Shown here one piece after another: positions 1,512 to 64,000 of a DNA stretch of 64,000 bases. Source of the DNA: Nannobrachium achirus (Eukaryota; Chordata; Actinopteri; Myctophiformes; Myctophidae). Under the pieces are notes generated by a model, which saw only the letters and a program-made list of their open reading frames with translations, searched no databases and was not told where the DNA came from. A program made the position numbers and the translations under genes. The DNA lies in NCBI GenBank assembly GCA_963921795.1, contig OY997639.1, positions 62,726,894 through 62,790,893 of the forward strand. Direction: 5' to 3'. Each line of letters begins with the position of its first letter. Position 1 is the first letter of the stretch.

Positions 1512-13860
<12,349 letters not shown>

Positions 13861-15599: not shown

Positions 15600-17890
15600 A
15601 ATGCATGAAAAATAATTAGTCAGTGGTCTATGAAGGCTATTCAATTATTTCACGTTTGATTTTGTGGTTATCTCATAGGAATAAAGCAAGCTAGTTGCTC
15701 AAGTGTTAATCATTTCTGTACTGTTTCCTACTCTGCTCTGGATTGCCATCTGCTGTTAAAATAAGTCAGTGTGCTGTCCCGTGCACTTTGATTGGAAGAG
15801 AAGCAGTCTGCCTACTATTTAGCATAAACAGCATTCACTTTGATCTTTCTTATTATTAAATAGATTCCCAGTAGTATTATATATATTTTTTTATCTAATG
15901 GTTTCTTCTACAGTTATGTTGTACTTGTGTGCGTAGTTTTAGTGTCTAAACACATTGTGTATGTCACGCAAAACCGTTAGTAAGATCAATAGTTTGATAA
16001 TTGAGATGGCTAGAGAGGTCTCTCGTAGGTAGGAATTTTACTCTTTTAGTATTTATCTAGTAGGTTTCTAATAAATAGAAGCCCTCTAAGAATGTTAAAT
16101 TAAATGATGGTAGGTGGTTGTTACCTTTGCATTGTAAAGCTTAGCTTATTGACCATTAAAGGCAAAACTAAATAGTTTATGCCTCTTCTTCCCTGTGCCA
16201 ATCATGATCTTAGATCAGTGTGGTTCCCTAAACATAATTTATTTTCAAGGACTATAGCACTCTATTGCAGAATGCAGACCAGAGAGTGAGGGTCTATTTT
16301 TGGAGGACCCTCAAGATAATGTTTCATTCCTTACAGCCCTCTTAAGCTTTTTTTCCACAAGGAATTTAACACACGTGGATTTATGTAATGATATCTTTAT
16401 CCAAGTTATAGTTTTTAACAGTCTTTATGGGACGCCAAGATCAGCGATCATTAGCATTCCCGAGGTTCAAAAATTATGCTTCCGAAATCTCTTGATGTTG
16501 ATTCCGCAAAGAGGACAGTTATTCACTACCCGCTCTGTGCCAAACAAAGCAGAAGCCCTTTTTAAACATATGCTTACAGTTCCTCACTATAGCACCATAG
16601 TGAACATACATCTCCAGTCATGGTTATCGAAAGAATGTTGTAAAAACATTTCGTCGTAAAAGGTTTCGTTGTTATTTTTCCTGTTTAAGCATATTTGACA
16701 TTAATAGGCCTATTAAAATGTTATTATCATTTTTTCCAGTGGTCTATCATGGATGCCATTTAATTATTTCACATTTTACATAGTGGTTATTAGTTGTTTC
16801 CTACTCTATTCTGGATTGCCATCTGCTGGTAAAATAAGATATAGTCACTGTGCTGACAATATTGACAACGTTGTCCCCTCCCGTCCCAAACGGTGCACTT
16901 TGATTGGAGGAGAAGCAGTACTGTTTAGCATAACCAGCATGCACTTCGGTCTATCTAATTATAAACTAGATTCCCAGTAGATAATGTTATATCTCAGATA
17001 ATCTCTTTTCTACAGTTATTAAGTTTTACTTGTGTGCGTAGTATTAGTGTCCAAAAAATTGTGTGTAGAGTAGACATAGGTATGCATCACCGTTACAACG
17101 ATATGTAGTTTGATAATTAACACAATTAGAGAGTTCTTTAGCCATTAGGAATTCCAACTCTTTTAGTATTTATCAAGTAGGTTCCTATTAAATAGGAGCC
17201 CCCTTACATCGTTGAAAATAAAAAAAAAACATTATATGTAAAACATAGAAGATAATATCTCTATAAATATTATTATAGTAGTTATCTAATAAATAGAATA
17301 GAGGCCCCTTACAAAGTTGAAAATAAAAACAAAACAATATATAAAGTGTAGTAGCAAAATAATGACTAGGCAAATGGACGACTCCTGATAGATTTAAACA
17401 TCTAGTCTGGAGTGGAGGGACATCTAGTCTGGAGTGGAGGGACATTAGTTAGTGATTGTGATGATGTGATCAGCTGTTCTTAGTTGTTCTCAGACTCCAT
17501 GGGACAAATTAATTAATTAGTTAATTTCGGAATGTCCTTAAAGGATAGAGCGCTTTGAGATTCAGATGCCATACGGACAGAATACTAATAATTTATAAGC
17601 TAAAATATGATCATTTTTTCAGCAGATATAAACTATATATTTAATATTCGACAACTTCATGTTGGGACGCCAGGATAAGCGATCACTAGCAATCCCGAGG
17701 TTCAAAAATTATGCTTCCGAAATCTCTTGATGTCGATTCCGCAAAGAGAGTAGTTATTCACCACCCTCTCTGTGCCAAACAAAGCAGAAGCCCTTTTTAA
17801 CGATATTTTGACAGTTCATGGGTACGAGCATAGTGAACATACATCACAGTCACGGTTGTCAAAAAAGATTGTATCGTAATAAATAACAGC
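15600..17890. repeat. 1.1-1.2-kb imperfect tandem duplication
   Basis: Two diverged copies share blocks in the same order: 'tggattgccatctgct' (15740 and 16813), 'gtgcactttgattgga' (15783 and 16894), 'ctcttttagtatttat' (16041 and 17158) and 'gaggttcaaaaattatgc' (16462 and 17697). The spacing drifts between 1073 and 1235 bp. No protein or known RNA recognised. The best conserved block (16430-16655 versus 17662-17885) is about 225 bp. A 22-bp direct repeat (tctagtctggagtggaggga) lies at 17400-17443. Confidence 0.8.
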
Positions 17891-48200: not shown

Positions 48201-51200
48201 CTCCCTCTCTGCCCTGTTAATGGACATGCACATAGACATCAAGTCATTCAAATTTGATAGACCTTTTAGCGGCCGTTAAGACAGTTCAAAATTGTCAATC
48301 TGCCAGCATCTCCTTACTAATACACTGTTAACTTCATGCTGGCATGAAGAAACCCCCACCCACACACTACAATTAACCTCATTACCTTCATCTGCATTTA
48401 CCAGTGAAAATGGCTGCTTTGAAAAGGATCGACTCCATAATCGTACCATCATTAACCAGCCAGGAACAATATTGTAAAATTGGCATTTCCACCTCACAAT
48501 TCTGAATCACACAGACACCCGGTGTGCAATCATCTCCAGTGTGCAGGTGACTCCCAGTGCATTTACATTTGTCTTAAAAAGGCTTTACCAGTGTAGCAGG
48601 AAGTGACTCAGATATGTCCAATTCAGGGTGGACACAGTTCAGGTACATATACTGTATTGACACACAATCGACAATTCACTCAATTTGACTATTCAACAAT
48701 TCACTCATTTTGACTATTCAAACAGACCTGCTCAAAAAATATATTCTGTAGTTTGCCTCATACAAGAAAGATAAACACAGTATAGTATATTGCACACGAT
48801 GTTGCAGCAAAAGCCTTTCAACTTGCATGTAATACAGTACAACCTTAGCAATATCAAATGTACATATTTTCACCCACCCCGTCCCCCACACGCCATGTAA
48901 GGCTGGGCAACTCTAGTCTATACAGTATTTCCATTTATCAGCTGCCTGTCCCCTCTGTTGGCCTTCTCAGCCCCAGCCTGCTGCCCGAATAATGTGTGTG
49001 GGAGGCCCGGTTAGCAGAAGCACATAGGAGATTAAACAGGTTATAAATGTTGCCTGGCTGGAAGAGAGGCAGCACAGTGTGGGAGGACTGCAGATAGTTC
49101 CCCTCCTCTCCCCCTCTCATCCTGTCGCTTACCCTTCCCCTCCAGCGGTGGCCGTCTTTGAGAGAGATTGAGGGGGGGGGGGAACATTTTTAAAAGAAAC
49201 ATTCAGTTGAAAGTGCTGGCGACGAGCCAAAATGTATCTGGTTATTACTTTTCAGTACAATGCAGAGCAGCCAGGGCTGAGTTCTGGTTTTGACTAACCA
49301 CATCTTTTCCACTCAGACAGCTGAGGCAAGGACAAGCAATAAAAAGCTCTGGGCCTGGATTGGGAGTAAAGCTACACGTTCTACCCCCTCCCAATTTCAT
49401 TTCTGAGCCTACCTGAGAGAACAACTGGACAGAGTTGAAAATACAGAAGCAGTTCTGCTCATCATTATGTCTAACATGATTAAATTGCCCTCCTAGCAGC
49501 CCTCAGATTATTAAAATGCACATAGCCAACTGAATCAGGTGTCTTCCTGCCTTCATTAAAGTGATGTTACTCTTTGCTTTGGTAGAACTATGGGATGTAT
49601 AGATTACTGGCCATGAGATGAGGCAAAACACTCAGTAATTTTTTAACATTTATTCCTGTGGTCTGTGATTGGAGAATGAGTTACAGCAGAGCAGATACAG
49701 ACACACTGTATATCTATCTACAAACATATGCATATCTAGCTACATACATAGATGTATCTATCTATACACACAAATATACATATCTACAAACACTAGCTAC
49801 ATCCATAAATGAATCTATCTATCTATATACACACACATAAACATACTGTATATCTATCTATAATACATTAACATACTGTATATCTATATACAACAATATA
49901 TACACCGTATACAAACACACACACACACACACGCAATAAGACATACTGTATGCATCTACAGTACTTCTCTATATACAGATATACCCATATCTAGCAGTTG
50001 TGGGGTATGGGGGTTGGGGGATCAGTGGTTGTGGGATATGGGACTTGCCCCGCCAACACACCGACCCCCCACCCTAGGAGCACCCATTTTTTTTTGGGTG
50101 GGGGGGGGGGGGGGGGGGGATCAGTGGTTGTGGGATATGGGACTTGCCCCGCCAACACACCGACCCCCCCACCCTAGGGGCAGTCGGGGGGCATTAGGGG
50201 GAGTCAGTGGTTGTGGGGTATGGGACTTGCCCCTCCAACACACCGACCCCCCCCACCCTAGGGGCAGACACGGGGTATGGGGGGGCCCCTTGGATCTTAG
50301 GCTAGCAGGCAACAGGGTATGGGGGGCCCTTGGATCTTAGGCTAGTAGACACGGGGTATGGGGGGCCCTTGGATCTTAGGCTAGTAGACACAGGGTATGG
50401 GGGGGCCCTTGGATCTTAGGCTAGTAGACACGGGGTATGGGGGGCCCCTTGGATCTTAGGCTAGTAGACACGGGGTATGGGGGGCCCTTGGATCTTAGGC
50501 TAGCAGACACGGGTATGGGGGGGCCCCTTGGATCTTAGGCTAGTAGACACGGGGTATGAGGGGGCCCTTTGGATCTTAGGCTAGCAGACACAGGGTATGG
50601 GGGGGCCTTGGATCTTACTAGCAGACACGGGGTATGGGGGGGCCCTTGGATCTTAGGCTAGCAGACACGAGGTATGGAGGGCCTTGGATCTTAGGCTAGT
50701 AGACACGGGTATGGGGGGGCCCCTTGGATCTTAGGCTAGCAGACTCTTTTAAATTGCTTTTAAAAGTGTTTTTCTTTATGGTGATTTAATTGTTTTAATC
50801 TTTTGTTTTATTTGCTTCATTTTACTAATGTTTGCTCTCGTTTTTAAATGTCTGTAAAGCACTTTGGAACTATGTTTAGAAAAGCGCTATACAAATACAT
50901 TTTCATTCACTTACCGTAATTACCGGGGTTATAAAAATAATTCCTCATTCTCCAATCACATAGTGCAACAACAGATAATTATGATGTTAATCCAAATATT
51001 GTCAGCTATCTTTGCCAGATCACAATACAACCCAAGATTCTAAAGTTGAACATAACTTCAACAAGAGACAAATTAGGACAAATTATCACCATCCTACCCA
51101 CATGCTGCACTTTACCAGTAAGTAAAGCTTACCAGTAAGTGCAAATAGACATCGGCACCAACACTACCCATTGGTCGGGAATTTCTCGGCCTTCTAATTC

Positions 51201-54200: not shown

Positions 54201-57200
54201 TTCTTAGGAGTCTTTTTTATTAATGATGCAGCAGCAGCAGCTTGACAGAAAGACGCGTTTCGGCTCTAGGCCATCATCAGTGTTACCTAGCGGCGAACAA
54301 AACTACTATCCCAAAGTGTAACAGAAAACATCCATTCCATGCAGGTTTTCTTTGTGAGCTTGTAGATTGCCCATTTTTGGCAAAGACGTTTGTTGTAGAG
54401 AAACACTAGCAGACCAAGTATAAAGCCTTGGGGGAACCTGGTCAACCAATGTTATGTTGGGTGGTACACCAGTCTCAAAAACAAAAGTCTGCATGCTGAT
54501 AAAGCCACAGTAGTACAGTAGAGATTTCACAGAGAACTGTTCAATGCAAATGTACTAAAATGGGACTGGACACATTCAGTTCAGAAGATTTCAAAACATT
54601 CATCCTAGTCTTTCCTTTAGTAGAAATCCCTTCACATAATGTACTTTCAAGCGTGAAGACCATATATTGTAGCTCAGGCCTAGGCCAGACGGAGCTGGAC
54701 ATTTCATATATCCTGGTTTTTCAGATATCCACATAGAAAAATATCTAGGTCCACACGACAAAGATATCTAGGTCTAAAATAACTGAGTCCCCTGACCAGG
54801 GGGACAAGCACACACAGTAAAGTCTTCAGAGATATCCGGGTTCCATGTCTACAAGGATCCAGTGAATCGGATATTTTTCAATGTCTCCAATTATTTATCC
54901 GGTTTCAAAAATATCCAGCTTCAATGTAAATTGACTTAATGACTTCAAATTAAAAAAAATTGAATCTTTCTCCATTATGTGGGACATTACTGGGTCACCT
55001 GTATTTGTTGACGCGGAGGAACTGTGCGACTTGCACGGCAGTAGTCCTGTCATCTTTTTCGTTAACTTCCTCTTCTTCCACCTCTTCCTCCTTCTCTTCT
55101 TCTTCCTCCTCTTCCTCAGTGGTGGGCTCCAGTTCAGCCCTGACAGTGACCAGGAGTTCGGGCTCCATGGCTGCCCACAGCTCGGACGCTTTGAGGACAG
55201 CCACTGATAGGGAGCGAAGACAGACAAGAACATTTTAAGTGGGGAGGGGAAAAAAAAGGTGAAAAAGAATTTACATAGTATAATCTATGATTGACATTTT
55301 CTGATGAACAACTTGACTTTTTTAAGATGGAGGAATGTCACGATGAACTTCACATTCATACCCGCTGCACAGCGTGTTCTTCCTGCACAGAGGAGGAACT
55401 GGATTGACAGTTGTCTACGGAAAAGTAATATTTCTTGTGGTTGCTCGAAGGTGACCAGATGTACTGTACATCGACCACATAATCGCAACGAGTTGCAATT
55501 GTGTTTAGTTTAGCAATTAAATTACATTTTGTGTGGCATCAATACCAAGCACATCGTAGCTACTCTGAAGTATTGGGAAGACTCCTGGTAGGATAGATGC
55601 ACAGAGATGCATTGCAAAGTAAAATAACGTATCCAATAAGTCAGGTTGTTCACAGTTCTTGCAGCAATGAACTTCTAACAAAGGAAACCAGCACTCAATT
55701 AGATCCAAGTGGGATTCTTCTTGTTTTTATTAATTGGGGGTGAACCCTTTAATAAAAACAAGAAGAATCCTACTTGGATCTAAGCGAGTGCTGGTTTCCT
55801 TTGTTATAAGAAAATAAGTCAGGCATACTTGTTGGGGAAAAAATATTTACATGAATCTTAGTTGACCCATTTATTTTACCATCTCAAAATGGCAAATTTC
55901 ACAGAATTTCACAGTTTGCATCCCTGGTTTTGGCCCTCAGATTACAAGAGAAATTAGCTCATGGCAGACTGAACCTCAGTGACAGCTGAGTGAACTCTTT
56001 TGCCTCCAACACACTCACACATGCACTCACGCACACACAATGTCAGCATCCACCTGGTCATTTCTCCACTTCAACTTTAAAATGGAGAACAATTTGGGTG
56101 ACGCCAAGTTACTGTAGGCAGGCCCTTACAGCAGAGCAGCAAATCTCAACTACACTGCCAAGATTACCAGCCAGCGGAGGCAAGAAGAAGCACTCAACCA
56201 TCTTATTCAGTCTGCTCGCATTCGCCTTGGTCTCATCATTGGGCAGCGCCATTTATTGAATTCAGTGGAAAGGAACCTGAAGCTGTAGGCTCCTAGTTTA
56301 AGACAACATTCTGTAATTTAGAAAAAAGGCTTTTGAAGTGACTTTGATTTTTCATATACCGGGTGCTTTCCCTTGCAATTTCTCTTTCAACTCTTGAAGT
56401 TTTGCAGTCTCTTTCTCCAGGGGTTTCTTCAGATCAGCACTGCTCAGCTGAGAAGACACAAAAGACAACATTAAGCTATACGGTGGTATGGCATGTTCAA
56501 CTCACTGACCATGTCTCACATGCAGTACCATTAAATACATCTTAAGATCTCTAAATACTTTAAACAAAAGTTTGTTTTGATATAATCTTTCACAATGTCA
56601 TTCCATATGATAACTTCTCTCAACACTAATCTTATTTGCCTGTGTCACTCTGCCCTCGACACTAGTGCCAAAAATACATAGAAAATGTAGTCAGTTATGC
56701 ATTTAAACATGAATAAATACAGTTTCTTCTGACAACTTGTTAAGTCGTGTAATGACAGAGCTACGAGGTGTTGCCAAAAGACTACTAAAATGATTACACA
56801 GTACGACTTTAAAATAACGTAAGGATAGGGAAAAGATGGTGTCAGCTCCGTATCTGTCCATGGCGATTTCCCTCAATTCGCCATGGTCATCAGAGAGCAG
56901 GGATGCTATAGGGAGGACTAGTGCCAGACAGAACACTGTTGAGAAGACTGCCCAGGTATCTGCCTCCCAGGATATGGTACAGTTCTGAACTGCTATACCA
57001 AGCCTTTATTTCATGCTGATATAAATCAATTTACAAATTGTATAAATTGTTTTGGTCAAAGGAGAAAGCATGCGACTATTCCAGCTACAAAGTGGATTTG
57101 TAGTTTTGTTTACCTTGCAGCTGTAGGGGTTGTGTGCGATGAAGGCAGCCAGCAGCTGAATAGCGCTCTTCACCACATGAATTGATTTGTCCATCAGCCG

Positions 57201-58735
57201 TCCCACAGCCAAACCCATAACCTCACTGTATCGACACAGAGGCAATGCCTGGCAGACAAACACATGCCGTTGAGGATGGTTTAATTCTGTGACCATAGAC
57301 CAGTCATAGACACACCCAAACACATTCTAAATGTAATGCTAAAAAAAAGCAGTGCTCCACTGAAACAATCATTCAAATCAGAAGCAGGATCTGTAATTGG
57401 CCAATTAAGTTCACATACAAGGAATTTGATTTGGCCTATTGCTTTCAGACAGATTACAGGAAAAAAGATGTACAGCACAGCGGGTGTGGAAACAAAAGCC
57501 CCCTACAAAATAGAGTAATTCAATTTGGATTGCATTGCATCCTTCTAGTAAAGTAAACCTCACCCTAAAATCCACATCATCCAGGATACATTCCTTCATC
57601 AACCCATGGTGGTAACCCCGTAACCAATCACAACATCAGACTCGAGAGTAACTGACCTTGCTGTTGACGATGCGTGTGTAGCCTTGTATTACTCGGGCCC
57701 GGACGTGAGAGTGCGTGTCGTGGAGGTGTTCCTGCAGCGTGTCAAAGTAGCGGTCTCGGTCGGCTTTACCGGACTCGTCCAGACCGTCTCCACACAGGAC
57801 CCGCACTAGAATCTCTCCCAGAATCTCACACACGGCTACACGCATGTTGGGGCTCTGCAGTGAATGAGAAACGCTGCACATGAGAATTGCACTTAACCCC
57901 CCAAACATTTGCCATGTAGAAAGATGTGTGATTAAGCAAGATTACATGATGCAAAATACATTTGTTGATATATTGCTTTAAAGTCTCAAGGACCTGTGTA
58001 TTTCATTCTCTAAAGTCAATTGGACATGCAGAACTTGCAGTAGTGCAAGAATTTATTCCAGTTCCAGGCTGGCTGGCTTCATGTCAAACAATTCACTCAA
58101 GGCTTCAATGTCTCTTACTGATCATGCTTATAGAAATGTTTTTATTCAGATGTTTGTCAATCTGCAGTGGATTAACCCTGGTCAATCAGTAGTGGTGTGA
58201 ATTATAGCCCTGATCTCATCCATCAATCAATCTGTGTCCATCAAAAGACAGCAAAACACTGAACAGTAGTGCAGTACCTCTCCCTCCAGGTGTGTGATGA
58301 GAACGCTGATGTTGGGGATCATCAGTTCTGGTACCAGGGAACCGAGCTCTGACAGGAAAGAGGCAAAAGCTTTGACACCCGACCCCTCTCTAGCCAGCTC
58401 CTCGCTTGACTTCTGACCAATCTCCCTAAAAAAAGGAGAAAGAAAAAGAAAAAAGGATCAGAGACGTACACTTGAGTTCAAAAGGCAAACAAGCCACAAA
58501 CATTGCCAGACAGTGATTGCATTTCTATTCAGTGAAGCTCAATGGTTAGATAATGCCGGTAAGACTTGCACCCAAGCTCATAACATTTAAAATATACAAA
58601 TAAAAAGATAAATGAACAGACTCAGAGGAGGGGGTTGCATCTGATTTTGGCCCTCAGATTACCAAAGAAATTAGCTCATGGCTGACTGAACCTCATTGAC
58701 AGTCGAGTGAACTCTTTGTCTCCAACACACACACA

Positions 58736-58769
<34 letters not shown>

Positions 58770-61700
58770 GTGTCAGCATCCACCTGGTCATTTCTCCAAT
58801 TCAACTTTAAATGGAGGAACAATTGGGGTGAAGACAAGTTACTGTAGGCAGGCCTATTAGCAGAGCAGCAAGTCTCAACTACACTCCCATGACAACCAGC
58901 CAGTAGAGGCAAGAAGCACGCAAACTATCTTATTCAGTCAGCTCGCATTCGCCTTGGTCTCATCATTGGGCAGGGCCATTTATTGGATTCAGTGGCACTT
59001 GTCGACCAAGTGCTTGTTGCGTATTGACTTAAATCATAAAGGTAAACGTTTAAACTTTTTTAAGTGCATCACTGTCTTTTGGCTTTGTTGGCAGCCGAGT
59101 TCACATGTCTGCCTGTTCATAGTCCCATGCAACTACAGACTTAAATTATCAATCCCTTCAAAATGTATGAACCAACAATGATTTGGCCATAATTAGACAA
59201 TGATCTTCAATGTGCAGCTTAAAAAAGTGGAACTTAAGCTTAAGAAAAAAAGGGGGAAAAAACCATGTTGGGTGGTTGCTCCCCACATTACTTGCAACCT
59301 GATCATCATTTTATTTTTTCAGAGGTCACAGACCCATGTTTGAAAACATAAATAGACTGTACAAACTGTCAAGTAGTACGTTTAGTCAATTGGACATCTT
59401 GATCTTATAAGTTGACATTTTGCAGCAGCACATCTTAAATTCACTTAACCTATAAACCTACCTATTATATTATGCACTCATCCATTATTTCCATTCTGAC
59501 TGACGTATGACATTTCCTGCTCTGACAGTCTATTGTCTAACTCTAATCCAATGCCTACTTTGTCAGAGAGGCGATGAAGCACACCAGTCAGATCATCTCC
59601 TTATTCCAAGTCAGTCAATTATCCACAAAGTCAGCTACTTTGACAAAGGAGAAGAAAGTAAAGTATCTCAGAAATACTGTTTCCTACCATTATGAGAAAA
59701 CATTTATTTTTACAACTTAGATTTACACCTTTTTGTGTACTTCCCACATAGTAGAATACTGAAATGATGCGAAAAGTGCATTTTAATAAACTCTTGACAT
59801 AACTTTATTTTCCCTTAGCTTTCAATGTGCAGTGCTGATATGGTGTCACATCTACGCCAAATAGTGCAGTTTGGTCCATTTTGCGGTCTGACTTGTAGAA
59901 CTCTTACCTTTTAGCTTAAAGTTAACTACAGTATTGGGAAGGTGTTTGATTGGTTCTCAGGAACTTAATCGAGATCAGCAGTACAGAGGAGTCTCAAAAG
60001 AAGCTGAAGGTAACTTATCGTAGACTTATTTTAATTTGTTAAATACAGCAAGTCCTTTTCATTTACATAATTATCATGGTCATTTGAAGGCAGTGTTAAT
60101 TTTGTCGACTAAGACTAAGACTAAAAGACTACAAGATTTTGATATTTTGTCGATAGACTAAAACTAGACTAAAACAGTCCCAAAAGACTAAGACTAAGAC
60201 TGTTATTTGTGTTATTCAAAAGACTAAGACTAAGACTAAATCTAAGTCTAAGACTAATGGCTGCAAAAAATTACACTGGCATTTAACTGCAATGAAATTA
60301 AAGGCAAATACATATTTTATGTATGTTTTATTTTGACCAAGTAACAGGCAGTAGAAGACAATGACTTGTTCATAATTATGTGGTTATATTAGGCTAAAAA
60401 ACCTATCCTAAAAGACGAAGACTAAAAGTCTAAGACTAATCCCAAAAGACTAAGACTTAAGCCCTTTGCACACAGGCGCGTTTAACCGCACGGATAAAAC
60501 GGACAATATAATTTTTTGAAAAGAAAACAATGATTCTCTATGACCTCATGCACACCGGCTCCGAATTAGCCGTGCGACGAGTGGCTGCCGCCGTGCGTTT
60601 TTTTCTCGATCGAACCCAGTTCGATTCGTGCGTCTTGTCGCATGCGGTAAAAAACTCATCACTCCTTTTATGACTCCTTTTTGGATCCGCAGCGCCGATT
60701 CCGCACAGCCTTGCACACCAAATCCAATGCGTTTTATTCATGCCGCAAACGAAAAAAACGCAACTGTCCTGTGTGCAAAGGGCTTAAGACTAAAATGTTT
60801 TGATATTTAGTCGACTAAGACTAGACAAAAATTATTTCAGAAGACTAAGACAGGACTAAGACTAAACGGTGTGTTATTCAAAAGACTAAGACTAAGACTA
60901 AATCAAAATTTGCTGAAAAAATTAACACTGTTTGAAGGATATTTGAAATAGCGGATGTATCGGCACAGGTCACGGCTCATGCTACAGAAGCAAATTTCTC
61001 TTTATCCACAAAATGGAATCAAGGCCATGAGTAAAATCACTTAACAAGCTTCTAGAAATAGCCCAGACATGGCATTTACTAAAGTGGACCTGGACATTGT
61101 TTAACCATGTTTGTCATACTGTAGGTAAACCAGAGACTACAATATAACATAAAAGGAAGAGGTCCTTCGACAACGGGTTAAACAATGGATGGGCACTAGT
61201 TAAAATGATGGACACTAATGCCTGAATATCATTAAACTTTTATACAAGCCGTTGTAGATTACGTTTTTTGGACTGTATGTATAGGTGAAACAGTTTCCAG
61301 AGGTCGCCCTCAGCATTGTTCTTTAAGCACTTGTTTTGTGGCATCACTCAAAATCAAAACACTGAATTGGCTAGAATAAAGAGAACCCAGAACCCACTGC
61401 AACAGGGTATTTTTCATATATCAGTCCATCATTCAAATGTACATGGGTAAAACATGCAAACAATTTATACATGCATATCACACCGACCTCATGACTTCTC
61501 CTACGATAGCTCTGACTCCATACTCTGTGCTCCACACGGACACAGCCTGGGCACACACTGATGACAGCTGTTCAAAGTGCTGCAGCAACTGAATGACCCT
61601 CACACTGGCACCTGTAGACATGAGGGTCAGGAGGGAAAAGCCAAAGGAAAACATGAAGTTGCATTATTATTGTTAACGAAATTAACCCTAGCGTAAACAG

Positions 61701-63444
61701 ATGGTAGGGCTGCAACTATCGATTTTTTTCATAGTGAATATTGTATAGATTTTTTAATTTATATTTTCATAGTGATTACTTTTCCGATCAATCAAGAAGT
61801 TTTTAAATCACCAACAAATTGATTTAAATCACCAACAAATTGATTAACCATTTTATCATTTGTTGCAAAACTGTGTCACTCAAACATAGCTAAAATAGCT
61901 ACCGGTAATCTACAAGCTCACAGGTTGCGTTGTGAACTTCTGATGAATAGCTTTGTACTCTTGCCTCTTGGTCATAGATGCAACACAACTGTATTGCGAC
62001 AATAAAAACACCTTGAACAAAACATAACAAATGCCCTCAGATTACCAAAGAACAAAGATCACAGCCATCATTGGCCTTCAACGCAAAGATTAGAGCTTCT
62101 TGCCAGGTGACACAAACACATGCATACACATAAACAAAACAACACATATCCACACACTGTCTGAAGCCCCCCACTTGTCATTTCCACATTTCTTCAGGAA
62201 AAAGACAGAGCGTAGGAGGCTGCAAGTTGACTGTGGGTGGGCCCTTACAGCAGTGTAACCGAACTTCGTCACACCGCCAAGATTACCCACCAGTCACAAG
62301 GCTACAGTCTAATCTTTTGGCCTGACTGGCTCATAATTGCCTCGTCTCATCATTGGGCATCATTTTAACATGTCATGATCATCCACGTATTTTAAGTCTA
62401 GGGCAAAGACACAACCATACTATATTTCCAGATAGCATGGTTATGTACTATATTTCCAAGGGTAATTTTCTAACTCTGGGACAGCTTAGTGTGCAACAAA
62501 CACCTGAAATTCAGAGACCACCCAGTCTCCGACGAACATTAGGCTTTAGCTGCGTATGTGTGAATGAGTGAAGGCAGACTAACCCAAGAGGTGGTTATAT
62601 TTCTTGATGAGCACTCCCAGCAGGTGGATAATGGCATCTCTGGTGGGCTTGGTCTTCACATAGATGATGGTGGGGTTCTCCATCAGCTTGTAACAGCAGA
62701 AAGTCACACAACTGAGAAGACAAGGATACAGGCATTTGGAGAATAGTATCATTAGAAATGGCATGAAAAGAGACCCAATGTCTAATCTATGATGCCATCT
62801 CCCATTAAGACCACAATGTTATCAACCGTAGACAGAGCTACAGAGCTCTCCAGTCTGAACAAGAGCAGAGGTAAATCACTTATTCCGTAATCGAGTTCAG
62901 TCGGCGATGGAAGATCCTGTCTCCCCCCTCAGCACAGTCTGCTGCGTAAGCCGATGGTGCAGCAGCCAGAATACATTTTGCCTACATGTTTAATATTTCT
63001 CAGGCATGGCCTGGGTAATATTTTTAGTCAGGCATGGCCTGGGTAATATTTTTAGTATTTCTCAGGCAGTTTCAGTGAGGATTTTAAATACCAAAGTTCC
63101 AAACAAGATTTGGAATTGTCAGACGCATGATAAACCCCAATTTGAATTATCTCTCAACATCAGTATAATTATCAGTCTCACAGTTAGCCATAAATATTCA
63201 ATTTAAAAAACGGTTTACTTGATTTTGTGAGTCATATCAAAGTCTTAGATTACAGTTGCAGTGTTCTAAACAGAAGGATTAACGGTGCTTCCTCCCACCT
63301 GATGAATTCCTCCTCCACCAGGGAGAGGCTCCAGAGCGAGCGGATGTCCAGTTGGAGGAGCTGGATCAGAGCCTGAAGAACCCTCTCCCTCTCAGAGTCC
63401 CACTGCAGCAGACCGTCTCCTCCAGCCTTCCCCTTCTTAGCGGA
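39259..63444 (-). CDS. ncapd2: Condensin complex subunit 1 (NCAPD2/CAP-D2), 3' 27 coding exons
   Basis: Minus-strand exons: 63444-63299, 62711-62584, 61611-61488, 58425-58278, 57854-57657, 57248-57114, 56447-56360, 55203-54999, 54128-54010, 53758-53546, 53050-52876, 52267-52183, 51702-51566, 48213-48081, 47879-47804, 47509-47291, 47187-47033, 46835-46724, 46590-46467, 46203-46048, 43644-43467, 43281-43187, 43053-42973, 42014-41831, 40968-40812, 39584-39462, 39341-39259 (edges +/-1). They total 3777 nt, 1258 codons plus stop, and every phase joins. NCAPD2 is the HEAT-repeat subunit of condensin I, which compacts mitotic chromosomes with SMC2/SMC4, NCAPH and NCAPG. Recognisable blocks are LLQLDIRSLW, MLPLVWSADAAVKDAV, LYLNPQGDS, VEEELGLVGAS, KVKGQVSEVAVLLIDP and AKLRRGAKP. 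An acidic, Glu-rich insert lies at 55020-55110 and a basic tail (PRRTRKSKKQ, ARTSRRARLRN) ends the protein. The 5' exons lie beyond the right edge. Four introns carry U85-like RNAs. Confidence 0.97.
41190..41286. repeat. Tandem duplication of about 50 bp in an ncapd2 intron
   Basis: 'gaacaccatgtatgggctta ... gatctgcccaatgggcactccaacatg' is repeated with small changes as 'gaacaccatacatggcatga ... gatctgcccaactggcactccaacatt'. Confidence 0.75.
43715..43840. repeat. Minisatellite of about 28 bp in an ncapd2 intron
   Basis: About four to five diverged units containing 'acacgcagcttctgcatgtt' and variants run through this stretch. Confidence 0.7.
45321..45433. mobile_element. Small TTAA-flanked MITE in an ncapd2 intron
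   Basis: 113 bp with ends TTAAAGGGGCCATG and its imperfect inverse (catggtgtggccccTTTAA). The TTAA tetranucleotide is present at both edges. Confidence 0.65.
48500..51550. other. ncapd2: Large ncapd2 intron
   Basis: The intron between exons 51702-51566 and 48213-48081 (about 3.3 kb) has no exon or RNA that I recognise. It contains the 50-kb minisatellite and (TATC)-like repeats at 49700-49900. Confidence 0.5.
50000..50745. repeat. G-rich minisatellite, two unit types
   Basis: Positions 50000-50280 hold three copies of a roughly 95-100-bp unit ('tgggatatgggacttgcccc', 'caacacaccgacccccc'). Positions 50280-50745 hold about 12 copies of a 38-41-bp unit ('acacggggtatgggggg', 'cccttggatcttaggctag'). 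A run of about 20 G lies at 50100-50119. Runs of four or more G recur once per unit, favouring G-quadruplexes on the plus (non-template) strand. Confidence 0.92.
52074..52172. repeat. (GTGA)n then (GA)n tract next to an ncapd2 splice donor
   Basis: About 21 GTGA units run into (GA)n and end 11 bases from the donor of exon 52267-52183. On the transcript this is a long (CU)n/(CACU)n pyrimidine run immediately after the 5' splice site. Confidence 0.93.
54169..54285. mobile_element. 117-bp retroposed LINE/SINE tail with 12-bp target duplication
   Basis: 'cctagcggcgaa' flanks the insert on both sides (54157-54168, 54286-54297). The insert contains 'acgcgtttcggctctaggcc' followed by 'atcatcagtg', the 'ctgatga...gccgaaacgcgt' motif found near the 3' ends of vertebrate retroposons. 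A related motif lies at 46930-46955. Confidence 0.8.
55676..55806. repeat. Fold-back inverted repeat in an ncapd2 intron
   Basis: Arms of about 55-58 bp (start 'taacaaaggaaaccagcact', end its inverse '...gctggtttcctttgtta') surround a loop of about 15 bases. There are only a few mismatches between arms. Confidence 0.85.
55931..56246 (-). ncRNA. scarna10: U85/SCARNA10-like scaRNA, copy A: pseudouridylation guide intact, methylation guide degraded
   Basis: The RNA lies in the ncapd2 intron 55204-56359, sense strand. Box C ATGATGA (56239-56233), box D CTGA (55940-55937) and the GCCC/GGGC terminal stem are present. Pocket strands AATCTT (56165-56160) and GTAAGGG (56129-56123) match U5 around U46. 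H box ACAGTA (56115-56110) lies 14 nt from the pocket, with ACA at 56043-56041 and a CAB-like TGAG loop at 56148-56145. The guide before box D reads TCTCTTGTAA instead of TCTTTGGTAA. That leaves only about four contiguous pairs next to C45, with mismatches opposite U46 and A48. Methylation of U5 by this copy is therefore doubtful. Confidence 0.78.
58650..58971 (-). ncRNA. scarna10: U85/SCARNA10-like scaRNA, copy B: methylation guide intact, pseudouridylation pocket lost
   Basis: The RNA lies in the ncapd2 intron 58426-61487, sense strand. Terminal stem GCCC/GGGC, box C ATGATGA (58966-58960) and box D CTGA (58657-58654) are intact. The guide TCTTTGGTAA (58668-58659) again positions U5 C45 five bases from box D. 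H box ACAGTA (58845-58840), ACA (58773-58771) and a CAB-like TGAG in the 5' hairpin loop (58877-58874) are all present. The pocket strands are changed: TTGTCA replaces AATCTT, and AATAGG replaces GTAAGGG, so U5 U46 can no longer be selected by the same pairing. A (GT)n run expands the segment between ACA and the D-box guide. It may act as a methylation-only guide or be a decaying copy. Confidence 0.8.
60091..60930. mobile_element. hAT-like element with 8-bp target duplication, carrying a nested insertion
   Basis: The ends CAGTGTTAATTTT and AAAATTAACACTG are flanked by TTTGAAGG at 60083-60090 and 60931-60938. The body is made of repeated 'gactaagactaa' words. It is interrupted at 60457-60787 by a second element. 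It lies in the same ncapd2 intron as scaRNA copy B. Confidence 0.87.
60457..60787. mobile_element. TTAA-type MITE nested inside the hAT element
   Basis: The inverted ends TTAAGCCCTTTGCACACAGG and CCTGTGTGCAAAGGGCTTAA bound a 331-bp insert with CG-rich contents (several 'cgcg', 'ccgcac', 'gcgccg'). Being inside the hAT body, it inserted later. Confidence 0.87.
61700..61860. mobile_element. hAT fragment 'agggctgcaactatcgat'
   Basis: The single recognisable end AGGGCTGCAACTATCGATT is a common fish hAT terminus. It is followed by AT-rich sequence and a 20-bp duplication ('aaatcaccaacaaattgatt', 61806-61845). No second end was found. Confidence 0.45.
62031..62360 (-). ncRNA. scarna10: U85/SCARNA10-like scaRNA, copy C: both U5 guides present
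   Basis: The RNA lies in the intron between ncapd2 exons 61611-61488 and 62711-62584, sense to the host. Minus strand: terminal stem ATGCCC/GGGCAT encloses box C ATGATGA (62353-62347) and box D CTGA (62040-62037). The guide TCTTTGGTAA (62051-62042) before box D pairs with U5 loop sequence UUACUAAAGA (one G-U), and its fifth base from the D box faces C45. Inside is an H/ACA part. Pocket strands AATCTT (62284-62279) and GTAAGGG (62248-62242) flank U46-A47 of U5. The lower stem is GGTGGG/CCCACC and the upper stem is 8 bp. A 14-nt distance leads to the H-box position, which reads ACAGTC instead of ANANNA (62234-62229). An ACA box is at 62160-62158. The U5 sequence is recalled from memory. Human U85 is also hosted by NCAPD2. 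Confidence 0.85.
63002..63060. repeat. 28-bp direct repeat in an ncapd2 intron
   Basis: 'caggcatggcctgggtaata tttttagt' occurs twice in tandem. Confidence 0.85.
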
Positions 63445-63810
63445 CTGAAACAGAACAAAGACAAACCGCCGTTCACAAATGGAACCAATGCAGTCCACCG
63501 TGGGCCTTTGGCTTCACTGTAGTGAAGATGTCAAACACATTACACAAGTTAATTTGATTCATGACCAGTTTGGTTACTTTGTTTATGAAAGATATGCATT
63601 ATGTTTGTTTGCTTTACGTAATGTGATTAATATTGTACAATTTATCATCTTGTGAAGAATAGCTTTGCTAGTCATATATGCAACACAACTGTATTGTACT
63701 GTATGTGCATGTGAAAATAAAATGCCTTGGGACAAGGTATCACTGCCACTGCTCACTCTGATGGGATGGGTTCAGCAAATCCCAAGCAAAACACTAGTAG
63801 CACCAAATAA

Positions 63811-64000
63811 ATGCCCTCAGATTACCAAAGAACAAAGATCACAGCCATCATTGGCCTTCAACGCAAAGATTAGAGCTTCTTGCCAGGTGACACAAACACA
63901 TGCACACAAATAAACAAGACAAAACAACACAACACATATCCACACACTGTCTGAAGCCCCCCACTTGTCATTTCCACATTTCTTTAGAAGAAAGACAGAG
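63811..64000 (-). ncRNA. scarna10: U85/SCARNA10-like scaRNA, copy D: 3' part, cut by window edge
   Basis: About 190 nt are nearly identical to the 3' half of copy C (62031-62209), lying in the intron 5' of the first visible ncapd2 exon. The end stem GGGCAT, box D CTGA (63820-63817) and the U5 C45 guide TCTTTGGTAA (63831-63822) are intact. The pseudouridylation pocket, H box and box C would lie beyond the window. The strong similarity to copy C, including matching upstream flank (63655-63720 resembles 61945-62010), indicates a recent duplication of this intron segment. Confidence 0.75.

Follow-up and report, generated by a model that had tools for sequence, protein, structure and literature searches.

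Can a single gene multiply a dual guide RNA in its introns, and do the copies then remain equivalent? The question is raised by a window of 64,000 nt (the whole stretch of DNA analysed, contig OY997639.1 of Nannobrachium achirus), in which the gene ncapd2 is associated with four RNAs of the U85/SCARNA10 type, here called c1 to c4. U85 belongs to the small Cajal body-specific RNAs (scaRNAs); the human form has NCAPD2 as its host and U46 and C45 of the U5 small nuclear RNA (snRNA) as its targets, according to the entry in PMC3766210. We consider it probable that intron-encoded U85-type scaRNAs multiplied within ncapd2, and that c1 and c2 lost opposite guides. The analysis covers sequence, predicted structure and pairings, from which we infer expression, assembly of ribonucleoproteins (RNPs), modification and any maintained division of labour.

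The three complete copies, c1 (55933..56244), c2 (58650..58971) and c3 (62033..62358), lie on the minus strand, as do all features of the gene described below. The fourth, c4 (63813..64000), is the 3′ part of a copy clipped by the window end and recognized by its identity to c3; its sense 3′ end falls at 63813, where the first-pass annotation had placed it. Scanning the window at curated cut-offs with the Rfam snoU85 model (RF01296, gathering cut-off 41 bits) recovered c3 (62073-62358, 70.3 bits, E 1e-15) and c1 (55932-56244, 61.1 bits, E 4.5e-13), and no further snoU85 in the 64 kb. The cut-off is therefore passed by two of the four copies; c2 scored below it, and the c4 fragment scanned alone gave no match, as may be expected for a partial copy. 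Every complete copy has the motifs ATGATGA (box C) and CTGA (box D) and is closed at its ends by a GCCC/GGGC stem. The annotation had attributed this set to all four; for c4 box D and the GGGC arm are visible, and box C and the GCCC arm fall outside the window.

Pairwise comparison places the copies in two subfamilies, c1/c2 and c3/c4. The first pair, aligned over 369 columns that take in short flanks, has 84.8% identity, and the second has 91% over 195 columns (7 mismatches and 10 gap positions), with 96 nt of unbroken identity from 63809 to 63904. Between subfamilies, identity is 63% over 243 columns (c1 and c3) and 61% over 337 columns (c2 and c3). The likeness of c3 and c4 fades within a few bases past the sense 3′ end, save for a displaced stretch of 67 columns at 70%. 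An assembly duplication of c3/c4 is ruled out by their different introns and different flanks. The 70% similar stretch, at 61930-61996 past c3 and at 63642-63696 past c4, is not equally far from the two sense 3′ ends; by eye it looks like a transposable-element end caught in the c3/c4 duplication.

To guide methylation of C45, the stretch immediately upstream of box D is expected to base-pair with U5 so that C45 faces its fifth nucleotide. This antisense element is found in three of the four copies, c2 (58654..58667, box D included), c3 (62037..62050) and c4 (63817..63830), where the guide CTTTGGTAAT-CTGA, counted upstream from box D, pairs from position 2 through 11 without interruption with U5 42-51. 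The resulting duplex comprises 10 contiguous pairs, one of them G-U, places C45 opposite the fifth nucleotide and has an energy of -10.3 kcal/mol. The former guide of c1 (CTCTTGTAAT-CTGA, 55937..55950) is mismatched opposite U46 and A48, giving a duplex of -3.3 kcal/mol. It carries two changes relative to c2, c3, c4 and the Rfam consensus; since c2 has the same letters here as c3 and c4, both changes are assigned to c1. In a crude target scan over 11 small-RNA sequences, the c2/c3 guide found its best site at U5 C45 by a small margin (17 vs 15), and U5 C45 was not among the four best sites listed for the c1 guide. The loop of the U5 sequence used is the same as that given in a section of PMC7960923.

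The second guide, for pseudouridine (Ψ) at U46, shows the opposite distribution. Copies c1 and c3 share the same pocket strands, TAATCTT and TGTAAGGG, which pair at 6 and 7 positions around U5 U46; this was also the best site of the pocket in the target scan (score 27; the runner-up, in U4atac, reached 22). In c1 they bound the 5′ H/ACA hairpin at 56123..56166 (left strand 56160-56166, right strand 56123-56130), and in c3 that at 62242..62285 (left strand 62279-62285, right strand 62242-62249), whose upper stem is uninterrupted. The pocket of c2 (58853..58895) reads TTGTCAT (58889-58895) and TAATAGG (58853-58859), a difference from c1 of 6 substitutions and 1 deletion within 15 nt. The pocket is thus intact in two of three assessable copies, that of c4 lying off the window. 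As annotated, an internal H/ACA unit occurs in all three complete copies; the unit of c2 is damaged. The H box, of consensus ANANNA, is ACAGTA in c1 and c2 and ACAGTC in c3, and an ACA triplet follows the 3′ hairpin in all three. The CAB box has the consensus ugAG; by eye, the 5′ hairpin loop holds UGAG in c1 and c2 and GAAG in c3.

By its family features c3 is a U85 RNA, with an H box one letter off the consensus, and c4 is very probably another. The copies c1 and c2 are U85-derived paralogues, in each of which one defining feature has failed. The pairings to U5 C45 and U46 that the first-pass annotation read from the sequence hold together for c3 only; c1 has a poor C45 guide, c2 an altered pocket, and in c4 the C45 pairing alone is seen. 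A set of four equivalent dual-function guides is not supported, since opposite guide halves appear to have been lost in two of the three complete copies.

The host is a multi-exon gene on the minus strand at 56-64 kb of the window. When the translations of seven exons are concatenated, the 318-residue product matches condensin complex subunit 1 (Ycs4) with an E of 1.4e-32; residues 7-314 of the query are collinear with residues 165-472 of the chain, and on this ground the gene is identified as ncapd2. With approximate borders, the exons lie at 63301..63444 (downstream of c4), 62585..62710 (between c4 and c3), 61490..61609 (between c3 and c2), 58284..58424 (downstream of c2), 57660..57854, 57117..57248 (upstream of a SCARNA8-type RNA) and 56361..56447 (between that RNA and c1), each bordered at both ends, to within about 6 nt, by splice-type ag and gt. 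An eighth fragment, downstream of c1 (55064-55189), was cut inside its frame, shows no ag/gt and lies outside the protein match, so the far border of the c1 intron is set by eye only. Both c2 and c3 are flanked by exons inside the protein match and occupy separate introns in sense orientation. The fourth copy lies upstream of the first visible exon, its own upstream exon being beyond the window end; we take it as intronic because the Ycs4 match starts at residue 165 and coding exons must precede it. Rfam, the exons and published hosts together bear out the annotation of the complete copies as sense-strand U85-type RNAs of ncapd2 introns. The SCARNA8-type RNA occupies another intron (56837..56969; Rfam RF00286, 108.9 bits, E 8.6e-21) and is a fifth scaRNA-type RNA within this stretch of the gene; its human host we take to be HAUS6/FAM29A, a gene other than NCAPD2, for which a paper search gave no confirmation.

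How the two paralogues diverged can be read from their alignment, which comprises 308 aligned sites with 37 substitutions, 18 gap columns being left out. Substitutions are concentrated in the pocket (6/14 vs 31/294 in the remainder; Fisher p 0.003), an excess that we treat as suggestive because it comes from a single pair of sequences. No site differs in the box C end (0/31), the box D end (0/8) or the lower stem of the 5′ hairpin (0/6, or 0/13 with the H box), and few do in the upper hairpin (2/29) or the ACA stretch (1/10, outside the triplet). The C45 guide (2/13), the GU linker (4/28) and the 3′ bridging arm (5/53) complete the picture together with the 5′ bridging arm (9/39) and the 3′ hairpin (8/64). 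The pocket is accordingly the fastest region, though the 5′ bridging arm is also fast. In the bridging stem a paired change, GCA..TGC in c1 and GCT..AGC in c2, keeps the pairing. Folding of c1 gives -123.8 kcal/mol (z -5.2) and of c3 a z of -4.6, and 0/100 shuffles folded as well in either case.

These observations may be joined into the following scheme. Splicing would free the RNA from each intron and, by analogy with the family, a box C/D RNP would form with a box H/ACA RNP inside it. The copy c3, and perhaps c4, is predicted to guide 2′-O-methylation of C45 as well as pseudouridylation of U46, both in U5. One further duplication would have produced c1 and c2, which would then have lost opposite guides, so that c1 could direct Ψ46 alone and c2 methylated C45 (Cm45) alone. 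Reciprocal loss would on this account reflect a maintained division of labour and not drift under the cover of c3. On this reading c1 and c2 would be reciprocally decayed paralogues, possibly subfunctionalized. That the two enzymatic modules of the composite guide have truly parted, a dyskerin-type Ψ46 activity going to c1 and a fibrillarin-type Cm45 activity to c2 on a retained shared scaffold, is a tentative extension that we regard as rather unlikely.

Several observations weigh against a division of labour. Both U5 marks could come from c3 alone, which retains everything, and c2 may simply be a dying copy. Its snoU85 match (58649-58971; looser-threshold scan of 16 kb) reaches 29.8 bits vs the required 41 (E 1.2e-4), and its fold of -100.8 kcal/mol has a z of -1.0, with 12/100 shuffles at least as good. 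Its 3′ hairpin is weakened (-16.8 vs -26.2 and -26.0 kcal/mol in the other complete copies), its 5′ hairpin stands at -20.9 vs -23.8 and -31.6 kcal/mol, and the 5′ bridging arm and 3′ hairpin have changed fast as well as the pocket. Read by hand, the altered right strand of c2 could even pair at 6/7 positions in a shifted register. The lesion of c1 amounts to two substitutions in a 13-nt stretch, and the whole case comes from one sequence pair of one species at the level of the genome. Together these points make it a real possibility that the locus holds one working U85 (c3, perhaps with c4) and two drifting intronic copies whose reciprocal losses are coincidental, the more so as antisense elements of extra small nucleolar RNA (snoRNA) copies are free to mutate, as stated in part of the review PMC11028025. 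Drift sits less easily with the strong fold and intact pocket of c1, with boxes C, D and H, ACA triplet and end stem that are the same in c1 and c2, with the unchanged C45 guide of c2, and with the paired change preserved in the bridging stem.

The concentration of change in the c2 pocket could alternatively mark guides that have acquired new targets. Among the 11 small-RNA sequences, the c2 pocket, tried with four cuts, fits U6atac position 102 best (score 20, 5+6 pairs) and the c1 guide fits U1 C13 best (score 15). These scores lie below the 27 of c1/c3 at U5 U46 and the 17 of c2/c3 at U5 C45, and are comparable with what the intact guides reach at their runner-up sites (22 and 15), which leaves neofunctionalization very improbable; no new target stands out in the set scanned, with ribosomal and messenger RNA outside it. 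Also very improbable is that the copies belong to a scaRNA retroposon (scaRT) family dispersed through the genome and located in ncapd2 by chance. The flank common to c1 and c2 is indeed only 15-24 nt per side, as a retroposon would have it, but all four copies are sense-oriented in a single gene, no A-run longer than 4 follows the sense 3′ ends, and the host is the same as in human and chicken. Further, the scan of the window at the curated cut-off gave no extra snoU85, and four of five exact motifs are confined within the window to these copies, the fifth, an 8-mer, occurring at 4 additional sites. On orientation, A-runs, and the scan and motifs within the window, an interspersed repeat or scaRNA retroposon is not favoured.

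Multiplication within ncapd2 with opposite guide losses, the reading we prefer, has partial parallels in other vertebrates. As in U85/SCARNA10, the RNAs are composite C/D RNAs with an internal H/ACA unit and lie in an NCAPD2 intron, with U5 C45 and U46 as predicted targets; unlike it, there are four in one ncapd2, the C45 guide being poor in c1 and the Ψ46 pocket no longer intact in c2. The chicken form, GGgCD80, is given in the consulted part of PMC2653536 as one isoform, 342 nt long, that lies in NCAPD2 intron 3 and whose C45 guide measures 11 nt. The annotation's view of a conserved host and an expanded copy number is thereby upheld for NCAPD2 in human and chicken and for more copies within the window than the chicken's one; that the human gene is single is not stated in the excerpt of PMC3766210. 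The same chicken study, in the portion seen, suggests that new snoRNA copies may arise mainly by duplication within a gene, and it describes paralogues that occupy adjacent introns of a single host, frequently with conserved guide regions (PMC2653536). Here, by contrast, a composite scaRNA has multiplied, and guide-module damage is reciprocal in one pair. A further parallel is the relation of chicken to human U32A/B and U69, where RNAs that are double guides in human have single-guide counterparts in chicken (PMC2653536, same portion); there the split separates guides of one kind, two for methylation or two for Ψ, whereas here it would separate one guide of each kind, carried by a single composite RNA. 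Because the chicken study proposes intragenic duplication and describes separated double guides, the U85 expansion is one by a known route, and the reciprocal pattern is unusual. Among the literature matches listed, no title concerned multiple U85 copies in fish ncapd2, the likely relevant survey by Marz and others (2011) being outside that reach. Exact-pattern scans of collections that by description include no fish gave 0 matches in viral contigs and 8 prokaryote stretches in genome contigs, taken as chance (20 positions, three free).

Elsewhere in the window, the Rfam scan places two U7 snRNA genes on the plus strand, at 16033-16086 and 17147-17203, and, interleaved with them, two U11 snRNA genes on the minus strand, at 16428-16563 and 17663-17798; the region 16033-17798 is arranged as if a U7-U11 unit had been tandemly duplicated. 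A long open frame on the minus strand (9735-10904) is intermediate-filament-like and by eye IFFO1, presumably a 12p13 neighbour of human NCAPD2, which would make for conserved synteny. A G-rich minisatellite, mostly of a unit of about 40 bp, occupies 50002-50744. At 55672-55810 lies a 62-nt inverted repeat that resembles a miniature inverted-repeat transposable element, its arms being 94% complementary and 15 nt apart; matches to microRNA families at 55686-55796 fall on this repeat below their cut-offs and were rejected.

Should c1 and c2 merely be decaying, the locus would be an ordinary local snoRNA expansion. If they have lost opposite guides as proposed, it would be an example of a composite guide RNA splitting after duplication, as protein genes do. 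A true split of modules would amount to a natural subfunctionalization experiment in a non-coding RNA, with c3 as a bifunctional control alongside in ncapd2, and with single-guide copies the two U5 marks could be uncoupled genetically at the natural locus.

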